Positions 3,373 through 8,878 of a stretch of 64,000 nt of DNA are shown here, piece after piece (position 1 is the stretch's first letter; the number at the start of each line of letters is the position of its first letter). A program made the position numbers and the translations under genes. The DNA lies in contig NZ_JAVFJK010000006.1 of assembly GCF_030908215.1 (NCBI RefSeq), forward strand, positions 1 through 64,000. Direction: 5' to 3'. The stretch comes from Sinomonas sp. ASV486 (GTDB taxonomy: Bacteria > Actinomycetota > Actinomycetes > Actinomycetales > Micrococcaceae). A model generated the notes under the pieces. It saw nothing but the letters and a program-made list of their open reading frames with translations. It was not told the origin of the DNA and made no database searches.

Positions 3373-4083
3373 TCACGCCCGAACCGCGGTGCAGCCGGGG
3401 TGCGGGCGGTCGTTGTGGATCCAGACGGCGTCGGCCACCTCGTCCGGGACGTCGAAGTCCCGTGCTGTGCCGCCCTGGCCGATCCGCACCACAAGCGGTC
3501 CGCCGAAGGGCTTGCGGCGCACCACCGTCAGCTGGGTGTCGAGCGCGATCTGCTCGGCAGCGAGATAGCGCAGCATGTCGGGGTTCTCGTCGCTGATCCG
3601 GGTGATCGTTCCCTCGTGCCCCGGGTCGAGCTCGCTGAGCAGGCGGGCATCGACCAGCGGGACGACGCCGTCCGCGGTGGGGATGGGGTCGCCGTGCGGG
3701 TCCCGCTGCGGGTCGCCGAGCTTCGCTGCGAGCCGCTCGACGAACAGGTCCGAGACGGCGTGCTCGATCCGCTCCGCCTCGACGTGCACCTCGTCCCAGC
3801 TGTAGCCCAGCTCAGTGACCAGGAACGTCTCGAGGAGGCGGTGCCTGCGCACCATCGTCAGCGCCACGCTGCGGCCCTCGGCGGTGAGATGGACGGCCCC
3901 GTACGGGCGGTGGTCCACGAGCCCTTGGTCCTTGAGCTTCCTGACCATCTCGGACACCGAGGAATTGGCGACGCCGAGCCGCGCGGCCAGCTGGGACGGC
4001 GTGATCGGCGCATCCTGCCATTCCGTGAAGGCGTAGATCGTCTTCAGGTAGTCCTCGGTGGACGAGGAGAGTGGGCTTTTCAC
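3373..4083 (-). CDS. mntR: DtxR/MntR-family metal-dependent repressor
   Basis: This 236-residue regulator has an N-terminal winged helix-turn-helix (residues 8-65, with TPSQLAARLGVANSSVSEMVRKL). A metal-binding and dimerisation domain follows (about 66-140, including VRRHRLLETFL), then a C-terminal SH3-like FeoA domain. The layout is that of DtxR/IdeR proteins, but its position directly behind mntH (16 bp gap) argues for manganese sensing, as in MntR. It should bind the palindrome ahead of mntH when Mn is plentiful. The start is GTG at 4083, with no Shine-Dalgarno site but a -10 box TAGGCT 7 nt upstream, so it may also have its own leaderless transcript. IdeR-like iron sensing is the alternative. 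Confidence 0.85.
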   Translation of the reverse strand: MKSPLSSSTEDYLKTIYAFTEWQDAPITPSQLAARLGVANSSVSEMVRKLKDQGLVDHRPYGAVHLTAEGRSVALTMVRRHRLLETFLVTELGYSWDEVHVEAERIEHAVSDLFVERLAAKLGDPQRDPHGDPIPTADGVVPLVDARLLSELDPGHEGTITRISDENPDMLRYLAAEQIALDTQLTVVRRKPFGGPLVVRIGQGGTARDFDVPDEVADAVWIHNDRPHPGCTAVRA

Positions 4084-6354: not shown

Positions 6355-7803
6355 TCACTCGCCGACGAGGCACGGCGCGGCGCCCGCGGTGCCGGGCGTA
6401 TTGGGCGCCCACGCCGGGAACGGCCGCGGATCGTGGGCCGGGACCCAGCGGCCCTCGTCGACGGTGTAGTCGATGCCGAGCCCGTGGGTGCGCAGCTCCC
6501 GCACGCCCGCGAGGAGCCGCTCCACGTCCTCGAGCCGCGATCCGAGGCCGAAGCTCGCGCGCAGTGACCCAGCGGGCAGGCCTAGACGGGCGAGGAGCGG
6601 GTGCGCGCAGAACTTGCCGTCCCGCAGCCCCACGCCGTGCTCGGCCGAGAGGTATGCGGCGACCAGACCGGCGTCGTGCCCGATCACCGAGAAGTTCACG
6701 ACGCCGATCGCCGACTCGGAGTCCTCGAACAGGCGGTGGACCGTGATGCCTTCGATCTCGCCCAGCCCCGTGACGAGCGCGTCGCGCAGCTGCTGCTCGT
6801 GCCGGTGCCACGCACCCGGATCGAGGGCGCCGAGGGCCTGGGCGGCCCGTGCGAGGGTCGCCGCGCCGAGCACGTTGGGCGAGCCGGCCTCGTGCCGCGC
6901 CGGACCCACGGCCCAGTTCACGGACTCGAGGCGCACCTCGCGCACCGCCCCGCCGCCCGCGAGGTGCGGCCGGCCGGCGTCGAGCCAGTCCGGCCTGCCC
7001 ACGAGAACGCCCGAGCCGAACGGCGCGTAGAGCTTGTGGCCCGAGAACGCGAGGTAGTCGATTCCCGTGTCCGTGCCGTCCGCTCGGCTGGTGCCCGTCA
7101 TGTCGATCCGACGATGCGGGGCGAGCTGCGCGGCGTCGACCGCGATCCTCGCGCCGTACTCATGGGCGAGGGCCGCGAGTTCTGTGAGCGGCAGGATCTC
7201 GCCCGTGACGTTCGAGGCGCCCGTGACGGCGAGCAGCCCGATGCCGCCACCCTCGAGCTCAGCGCGGAGCCGCTCGAGGGTCTCGGCGAGCGTGCCCGCG
7301 GCCCCCACGCTGCGGTGCGCGCGGGCCTGCCAGGGGAGGAGGTTCGCGTGGTGCTCGATGTCGAGGTACAGGACGTCGAGGCCGTCGGGGACGCACCCGG
7401 CCAGGAGATTGAGCGAATCCGTCGTGTTGCGCGTGAAGACCACGGCGTCCTCGGCGCGGGCGCCGACGAATGCACGCACCACGCTGCGGGCGTTCTCGTA
7501 CACGCTCGTGCTGATCTGCGACGCGTACCCGGCGCCGCGGTGCACGCTAGCGTAGAACGGCAGGATCTCCTCGAGGTGTTCGGCGACCTCGACGAGTGCC
7601 GGGGCGGATGCGGCGTAGTCGAGGTTCGCGTACCGGACCTCGCCGCCGCCCACGAGCGGGGCTTGGAGGTTCGCGCCCACTACGGCCGCGAGCGGCTCCC
7701 GGGCGTCGGGGTACCGATCCGTGCCGGCATGACGGACCGCATCAGGACGACGGTCGACGTCGCGGGGCTGGGAGAGAGAGGGTGCGGACAGGGCTGCGCT
7801 CAC
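6355..7803 (-). CDS. Class V aminotransferase/cysteine desulfurase-like PLP enzyme under SAM-IV control
   Basis: This fold-type I PLP enzyme has 482 residues. The cofactor lysine is K257 in FSGHKLYAPFG. EHHANLLPW and RNTTDSLNL are typical of the SufS/CsdA and isopenicillin-N-epimerase-like class V group. About 45 disordered residues precede the core, which starts near RYANLDYAASAP. The start is set at GTG 7803, with GATGAGG 8 nt upstream; an ATG at 7860 is rejected because it lies inside the riboswitch aptamer. Control by S-adenosylmethionine points to sulfur or methionine metabolism, such as sulfur release from cysteine or a cystathionine-type reaction. The exact reaction is not readable from sequence. 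Confidence 0.83.
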   Translation of the reverse strand: MSAALSAPSLSQPRDVDRRPDAVRHAGTDRYPDAREPLAAVVGANLQAPLVGGGEVRYANLDYAASAPALVEVAEHLEEILPFYASVHRGAGYASQISTSVYENARSVVRAFVGARAEDAVVFTRNTTDSLNLLAGCVPDGLDVLYLDIEHHANLLPWQARAHRSVGAAGTLAETLERLRAELEGGGIGLLAVTGASNVTGEILPLTELAALAHEYGARIAVDAAQLAPHRRIDMTGTSRADGTDTGIDYLAFSGHKLYAPFGSGVLVGRPDWLDAGRPHLAGGGAVREVRLESVNWAVGPARHEAGSPNVLGAATLARAAQALGALDPGAWHRHEQQLRDALVTGLGEIEGITVHRLFEDSESAIGVVNFSVIGHDAGLVAAYLSAEHGVGLRDGKFCAHPLLARLGLPAGSLRASFGLGSRLEDVERLLAGVRELRTHGLGIDYTVDEGRWVPAHDPRPFPAWAPNTPGTAGAAPCLVGE

Positions 7804-7838
7804 GGCGTATACCTCATCAGATGGGGGACCCGGGGACG

Positions 7839-7953
7839 GGTCCGCGCTTGCCGTATCCATTCCGGACCGGCCCGGTCGTCACCCGGGGCACCCCGCCGCG
7901 TTCAGGAGGGTTGCCGGCCAGCAAACCGGGGTTTCGCGCTGGCACTCGTGACC
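7839..7953 (-). promoter_or_regulatory. SAM-IV riboswitch
   Basis: Read on the minus strand from 7953, the RNA begins GGTCACGAGTGCCAGCG. It continues through CCCCGG, TTTGCTGGCCGGCAACCC and GGCGGGGTGCCCCGGG, closes P1 with GACC at about 7874, and has the downstream element CGGCAAGCGCGGACC (about 7839-7853). These blocks, in this order, match the SAM-IV class as I remember it from actinobacteria. A competing hairpin (GGACCC/GGGTCC, 7826-7843) overlaps the 3' end of the aptamer. The Shine-Dalgarno site GATGAGG (7812-7818) and GTG start follow, so translational control is plausible. A -10-like TAGTGT lies at 7968-7963. Confidence 0.88.
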
Positions 7954-8059
7954 TTGGAAGAGACACTAGGCCACGCGGACGCCTCAGCGCACGCGTGGCC
8001 CGGTGTGTGGGGCCGAGTATGACGAACGGTGACTCAGCCTCCGGGGGAGGGGCGGGGCG

Positions 8060-8878
8060 TCAGTGCGGCAGCAGGTCGTCGTGCTCAGGGCTGAGCTTCT
8101 TGAGCACCTCGGAATGCAGGATCCCGTTCGTCGCGAGCGCGCTGCCGCCCCAAGGACCGTCCTGGCCATCGAGCGAGGTGAAGCGGCCCCCGGCCTCCGT
8201 GACGATCGGCACGAGCGCGGCCATGTCGTAGAGGGCGAGCTCAGGCTCCGTCGCGATGTCCACCGCACCCTCGGCGACGAGGCAGTAGGACCAGAAGTCG
8301 CCGTAGGCGCGCGTGCGCCAGACATCGTCCGTGAGGCCGAGGAAGCTGTCGAGGCTGCCGCGGTCCTTCCAGCCGGTCAGCGACGAGTAGGACAGGGATG
8401 CGTCCTCGAGCGTGGCCACGTTCGAGACCTTGAGGCGGGTGGCGGAGGCGAGGGAGCGTCCCGTATAGGCGCCGCCGCCCCGGACCGCCCACCAGCGGCG
8501 GTTCAGCGCGGGCGCGCTCACGACGCCCACGACGACCTCGTCCCCGTCCGCGAGGGCGATGAGGGTGGCCCAGACCGGAACGCCGCGGACAAAGTTCTTC
8601 GTGCCGTCGATCGGGTCGATGATCCATCGGCGCGAGCCGTGCCCGGTGGTGCCGAACTCCTCGCCGACCACTGCGTCCCTGGGGCGGGAGCGGGACAGCT
8701 GCCCGCGGATGGACTCCTCAGCGGCGCGGTCGGCGTCGGTGACCGGGGTGAAGTCCGGCTTCGTCTCGACCTTGAGGTCGAGGGCCTTGAACCGCTCCAT
8801 GGTCTGGGCGTCGACGGAGTCCGCCAGCACATGGGCGAGGCGGAGGTCGTCGTTGTACGTCTCGGGCGCAGGGGTCAT
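8060..8878 (-). CDS. hisN: Histidinol-phosphatase, inositol-monophosphatase family
   Basis: This 272-residue enzyme probably dephosphorylates L-histidinol phosphate, the penultimate step of histidine synthesis in actinobacteria. The metal-binding motifs of the inositol monophosphatase fold are clear: GEEFG at 72-76 and [12 protein letters not shown] from 88, plus the C-terminal [17 protein letters not shown]. The hisN assignment rests on family resemblance and on the rsgA/aroA neighbourhood common in Micrococcales. Inositol-1-phosphatase is the alternative. The ATG at 8878 has a -10 box TAGCGT 6 nt upstream and no Shine-Dalgarno site, so the message is probably leaderless and independent of rsgA, which ends 124 bp upstream. 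Confidence 0.82.

Follow-up and report, generated by a model that had tools for sequence, protein, structure and literature searches.

In the present study, a SAM-IV riboswitch was identified in the 5' leader of a gene for a stand-alone cysteine-desulfurase-like PLP enzyme of the soil actinobacterium Sinomonas sp. ASV486. Both features lie on the minus strand of the stretch of 64,000 nucleotides analyzed herein (the window). We consider it quite probable that this riboswitch turns the gene down at high SAM through translational OFF control, and that the enzyme supplies cysteine sulfur for homocysteine synthesis. Judging from the sequence comparisons described below, expression of the enzyme is very likely switched off at sufficient levels of SAM. 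Herein, we propose that the binding of SAM would lock helix P1 and pseudoknot PK-2, that PK-2 would take G7843, and perhaps also G7842, from the hairpin at 7843-7826, and that the altered leader would hinder ribosome entry at the GATGAGG motif, resulting in translational OFF. When SAM or methionine is short, the enzyme would be made, would remove sulfur from cysteine and would offer it as persulfide or sulfide, and this sulfur would then go to homocysteine synthesis by the MetY/MetZ sulfhydrylases bearing the same riboswitch in this genome. In this way, a start codon and a mode of regulation are assigned for a widespread, uncharacterized PLP enzyme, and the pairing yields a definite prediction on the flow of sulfur between methionine and cysteine.

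The SAM-IV class was reportedly described by Weinberg and colleagues in 2008. An earlier note on this DNA, made from the letters alone, had recognized four blocks in SAM-IV order on the minus strand and had called for an Rfam covariance search with RF00634. All four blocks are present in this order, namely GAGTGCCAGCG at 7947-7937, GCTGGCCGGCAACCC at 7922-7908, GGGGTGCCCCGGG at 7894-7882 and CGGCAAGCGCGG at 7853-7842, and the search (cmscan of the entire window against 4227 families) gave a single SAM-IV match, at 7953-7839 of the minus strand, that covers model positions 1-116 completely and scores 102.6 bits, far above the gathering score of 38. With an E value of 1e-17 over the whole window and 4227 families, a match by chance is excluded, and the identity of 7953-7839 as a genuine SAM-IV riboswitch can be regarded as certain on this sequence match. 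The passages on architecture in the cryo-EM report of SAM-IV describe helices P1, P2a, P2b, P3 and P5 together with pseudoknots PK-1 and PK-2, the second strand of PK-2 lying at the 3' end (PMC6890682). Using the RF00634 alignment and this order of elements, the CGCG of the P3 loop (7900-7897, minus strand) is assigned as the probable 5' strand of PK-2, and it is complementary to the CGCG at 7846-7843 within GCGCGG (7847-7842), of which the terminal GG (7843-7842) is shared with the hairpin that follows. In the distant relative L041, one PK-2 pair is altered on both sides (G-C to A-U) and another is broken, as a single case. The strands of PK-1 are evident in the window solely through the covariance-model match. 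Compared with the SAM-IV consensus, the match is full-length, the PK-2 strands are present and nothing essential differs, except that PK-2 in the window probably has 4 bp and lacks the additional pair seen in the consensus.

The second result concerns the start codon of the enzyme, which the earlier note had moved from ATG 7860 to GTG 7803, and the comparison of leaders bears this relocation out. The ATG at 7860-7858 begins a 501-codon open frame running to 6355 and sits inside helix P5 of the aptamer, and the GTG at 7803-7801 lies in the same frame, 19 codons downstream, with the putative ribosome-binding site GATGAGG (7818-7812, minus strand) 8 nt upstream of it. An in-frame start preceded by a motif resembling a Shine-Dalgarno (SD) sequence, 26-42 nt 3' of the aptamer, was observed in 40/40 leaders (the window and 39 relatives), a result that is partly built in because the start codons were picked by our own rule; the motif was GTGAGG in 25 of the 40. 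If translation began at ATG 7860 instead, the aptamer would be partly coding, and consistent with this are the open frame from 7860 to 6355 and the 17 of 39 relatives in which the frame is also open back into the aptamer, 10 of the 39 having an in-frame start codon there, like the window. Against it, an in-frame stop separates the aptamer from the start in the other 22 of the 39 relatives, the SD-preceded start is found 3' of the aptamer in every leader, and a ribosome in P5 would disrupt the aptamer itself. ATG 7860 was rejected on these grounds as a highly improbable start, and the assignment of GTG 7803 is well supported by the compared sequences.

Directly 3' of PK-2, a hairpin of 7 bp with a loop of 4 (7843-7826, minus strand) forms the putative expression platform. 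It is present in all 40 leaders, which comprise 38 distinct sequences, and it covaries: numbering along the 5' arm of the predicted fold of each leader, pair 3 is A-U in 35, C-G in 2, G-C in 1 and G-U in 1, pair 5 is C-G in 25, U-A in 10, U-G in 1 and G-C in 1, and pair 7 is C-G in 32 and G-C in 4. The energy of the hairpin was more than 2 standard deviations below the mean of 200 base shuffles in 32 of the 40 leaders. Since the GG at the end of the PK-2 strand also forms the first one or two pairs of the hairpin, the full PK-2 and the full hairpin are mutually exclusive by one or two pairs. The earlier note had proposed that this hairpin overlaps the 3' end of the aptamer and could switch ribosome access; its position and overlap proved exact, and it is conserved, but the modeled effect on ribosome access is weak and mixed. 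In a folding model that handles no pseudoknots, applied to 40 mutually related leaders, the mean accessibility of the SD fell from 0.29 to 0.18 when the aptamer was imposed (lower in 27/40, higher in 7/40). When the PK-2 GG alone was blocked, accessibility was lower in 18 and higher in 10 of the 40 leaders, and it was practically unchanged in the window leader (0.17 versus 0.18). The modeled influence of the aptamer on ribosome entry is thus small and points to switching at the SD only weakly.

Translational OFF control is nevertheless the likely mode here, as suggested by the model and by the layout of the leader. The alternative is that the same riboswitch acts on the same gene through transcription, with the 7843-7826 hairpin or Rho ending the transcript early when SAM is bound. 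Passages of a study on Streptomyces clavuligerus report premature transcript ends at the SAM-IV leader of CRV15_21540, a gene with one of the most extreme falls from premature transcript to coding sequence, which suggests transcriptional control in that organism (PMC8269248), and some Arthrobacter-type leaders have 3-4 U after the hairpin. In the window leader, however, the sequence after the hairpin is CCCAUCU, no more than 7 nt separate hairpin and SD, and neither a U-tract terminator nor a sigma-70-like promoter was found within 7700-8100; an intrinsic terminator was accordingly dropped as a candidate, and transcriptional control at this gene appears rather unlikely.

The open frame at 7803-6355 (minus strand) encodes 482 aa from the GTG. 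The name "class V aminotransferase" used in the earlier note is right for the fold family (Pfam Aminotran_5, 260.1 bits) but not for the identity of the enzyme, which is cysteine-desulfurase-like in its catalytic Lys, His and Cys. Numbered from the GTG, H152, K257, R394, G396, C399 and A400 do not vary across an alignment of 29 rows (the window enzyme, 27 homologues and the SufS of the same genome), and the RxGxxCA context of the catalytic Cys is present along with the Lys and His; presumably, K257 is the PLP lysine, H152 the substrate histidine and C399 the catalytic cysteine. The closest solved proteins are cysteine desulfurases, and the fold family and active-site residues are those of SufS and other group II cysteine desulfurases (PDB 9ddd, 8odq, 1i29 and others). 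However, the ten best PDB matches stop at residue 437-438 of 482, and the enzyme carries a C-terminal extension past residue 438. The best NCBIfam family was sufS (TIGR01979), with 251.7 bits against a cut-off of 475.1, whereas the SufS of the same genome, whose gene lies about 100 kb from the SAM-IV element on its contig, scored 536.8 bits; an identity of the enzyme as SufS was rejected on this score. In a tree of 33 rows, a clade of 23 (support 100/99) holds all of the SAM-IV-linked rows and four without SAM-IV (L151, L153, L154 and L155), and outside this clade are SufS, two NifS-like proteins and seven distant rows. Of these seven, two (L156 and L157) come from genomes in which no SAM-IV was found, and the loci of the other five likewise gave none. 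From these comparisons, the enzyme appears to be a group II cysteine-desulfurase-like protein distinct from SufS, set apart by its score, its clade, its extension and the SAM-IV link of its gene.

Five SAM-IV sites, including that of the window, were found in the genome, and the company of this regulon bears on the role of the enzyme. The second site lies upstream of an O-acetylhomoserine sulfhydrylase (745.5 bits, cut-off 703). The third precedes three genes in a row (G000:C1:484024-486086; L056 2025-4093), which encode a DUF1737 protein, a rhodanese and an O-succinylhomoserine sulfhydrylase (755.7 bits, cut-off 618); this arrangement suggests a sulfur-carrier route to homocysteine. The fourth lies upstream of a flavin reductase at C14, and the fifth upstream of what looks by eye like a similar flavin reductase, at C12, after which comes an NMT1/THI5-like ABC binding protein. 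Apart from a second O-acetylhomoserine sulfhydrylase-like protein, the genome also encodes a cystathionine gamma-synthase, and with the latter in place, the desulfurase fills no obvious gap. A sulfur role other than that of a cysteine desulfurase for methionine synthesis is to be weighed, such as cysteine/cystine C-S lyase, selenocysteine lyase, supply for thiamine or tRNA thiolation, or keto-acid transamination in methionine salvage. The score far below the sufS cut-off and the C-terminal extension would both suit such a role, and in S. lividans, a cysteine desulfurase linked to SAM-IV has been assigned by annotation to thiamine metabolism (PMC8079986). On the other hand, the enzyme retains all three group II desulfurase residues (Cys, His and Lys), and methionine supply agrees better with control by SAM and with MetY/MetZ as fellow members of the regulon. 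Another sulfur role is a serious possibility, and the supply of cysteine sulfur to homocysteine synthesis remains the reading that we favor.

The pairing of riboswitch and gene is widely conserved. A scan of genome contigs gave at least 47 relatives, and among the 47 listed, SAM-IV lies directly upstream of the homologue in 39 (16/16, 15/15 and 8/16 in three batches); the eight without it are distant, with 29-42% identity in the best segment. In a class sample of 296 genomes, a homologue was found at E <= 1e-60 in 114 and SAM-IV in 187. From the 150 SAM-IV places listed, 76 of the 114 homologue genomes have an adjacent SAM-IV, and a second search of the other 38 added 30, bringing the number with SAM-IV directly upstream to 106/114; three distances (552, 582 and 888) come out long as a result of partial protein matches. 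For the remaining eight genomes, SAM-IV was not found anywhere in the assembly (one assembly being only 78% complete), no other known riboswitch was found near the homologue at gathering scores in 8/8 loci, and no SAM riboswitch was found at E values up to 5 in 7/8 loci, L156 being excluded because of its size. Of the 150 SAM-IV places listed, on the other hand, 74 do not adjoin a homologue, indicating several targets with the enzyme gene among them. Within Micrococcaceae, gene order is shared. In a comparison of 35 loci, of which 18 were SAM-IV-linked and came from other families, no neighbor family was shared by more than six; the ORF calling used there did not pick up the enzyme in L150, L152 and L155. 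Shared synteny alone thus does not account for the pairing. Taken from these sequences, the link between riboswitch and enzyme appears to be old and to have been kept in one enzyme clade across actinobacterial families.

Several observations were made on exceptions and neighbors. In genus g6, of the same order, the homologues L150, L152, L153 and L155 are in genomes without SAM-IV found, and another g6 genome (G204) has SAM-IV and no homologue, so that regulation by SAM-IV might have been lost or replaced in this genus. Downstream of the enzyme gene in the window (6237-3373, minus strand) are a SAM-dependent methyltransferase, an MntH-type NRAMP transporter and, by eye, an MntR-like regulator, and among the 47 listed relatives, the vicinity of the gene includes the methyltransferase in 37 cases, the regulator in 36 and the transporter in 10. 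The methyltransferase follows the enzyme in all of these 37, which have one Micrococcaceae-type gene order, and it was dropped as a conserved operon partner or functional clue given the 35-locus comparison. Two assemblies with the Micrococcaceae locus in the same gene order, L030 (titled Sporosarcina beigongshangi) and L037 (an Acidobacteria MAG), are most likely mislabeled or contaminated. In the Frankia-type locus L041, an MTHFR-like protein follows the enzyme, and the Frankiales MAG L042 has two SAM-IV elements (116-225 and 3789-3901), one ahead of an amino-acid-type ABC transporter and the next ahead of the enzyme; the neighbors in these two loci would fit the sulfur/SAM picture. At the edge of the window (1230-22, minus strand), an ORF with a helix-turn-helix start resembles an IS-type transposase by eye.

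The claim of the earlier note that the enzyme joins the SAM regulon is supported, but it is not new. In the parts of two papers that deal with these genes, SAM-IV is placed ahead of SLIV_26975 of S. lividans, annotated as "cysteine desulfurase (thiamine metabolism)" (PMC8079986), and CRV15_21540 of S. clavuligerus, with its SAM-IV premature transcript, is annotated as "aminotransferase class V-fold PLP-dependent enzyme" (PMC8269248). The riboswitch class and the kind of enzyme are the same, with homology to the window gene presumed from the annotation. Since SAM-IV with such an enzyme has already been published for Streptomyces, the window adds a further member and a comparative base. In M. 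avium, part of one report places SAM-IV on an O-acetylhomoserine sulfhydrylase (PMC3774663). The words aminotransferase and desulfurase are absent from the main text of a Rhodococcus sulfur-source proteome (PMC8557817), the Actinobacteria covered in the relevant part of PMC3766115 are Corynebacteriaceae and Mycobacteriaceae only, with no bearing on the target, and a term search of PMC2864571 gave nothing bearing on it. A literature search for a class V aminotransferase tied to methionine or sulfur starvation gave no match, which is weak evidence because the known pairing is worded differently in print.

Outside the window, the leaders of genus g31, which is probably Streptomyces (27 of the 296 class genomes, 5.8-11 Mb), differ from the window leader: 3' of the hairpin, where the window has the start of the enzyme itself, the SD and start codon belong to a six-codon ORF (loci L113, L117, L120, L121, L126, L141 and L158-L183). 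This ORF mostly reads RTG NNN NNN CGA ATG CGN TAG, encoding M-x-x-R-M-R-stop. A strict pattern derived from six leaders was found in 18 of the 296 class genomes, all of g31 and in all 18 places just 3' of SAM-IV, and a looser expression, fitted afterwards, found the ORF in 26/26 g31 leaders examined; the 27th genome (G277) has neither SAM-IV nor a homologue. Codons 4 and 5 and the stop are CGA, ATG and TAG in 26/26, and codons 2, 3 and 6 are variable. A joint pattern of aptamer end and ORF matched 194 of 246 genomes of the genus, of which 15, by our count, were already in the class sample (14 of these matching), and G163, among the 52 unmatched, has a variant; a reversed control pattern gave 0 in every row.

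Two features of the g31 leaders relate to the action of this ORF. A short GC hairpin beginning at the last base of its stop codon is predicted in 24/26 leaders (not in G089 and G285), with unexceptional stability (z < -1.5 in 6/26, mean -0.77). Alternative folds that bury the SD exist, and the modeled states were not separated (0.34 versus 0.31; 8 lower, 6 higher). Searches of the literature gave no mention of the peptide MSKRMR and no match for a SAM riboswitch with an upstream ORF in Streptomyces, the latter being weak evidence since keyword blanks missed the known pairing; in the leader-peptide passages of the S. lividans paper, 8 leader peptides are named and this ORF is not among them (PMC8079986). 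As a more speculative extension, which we put forward tentatively and regard as improbable in its entirety, a dedicated desulfurase clade under SAM-IV control might pass sulfur from cysteine on to MetY/MetZ, the co-regulated rhodanese serving as carrier, and so provide a transsulfuration-free route from cysteine to homocysteine, and in the probable Streptomyces genus the same riboswitch might instead gate the start of the six-codon ORF, so that a SAM riboswitch would work through a leader ORF and transcription attenuation. If the ORF is translated, this would be an unusual mode of riboswitch action.
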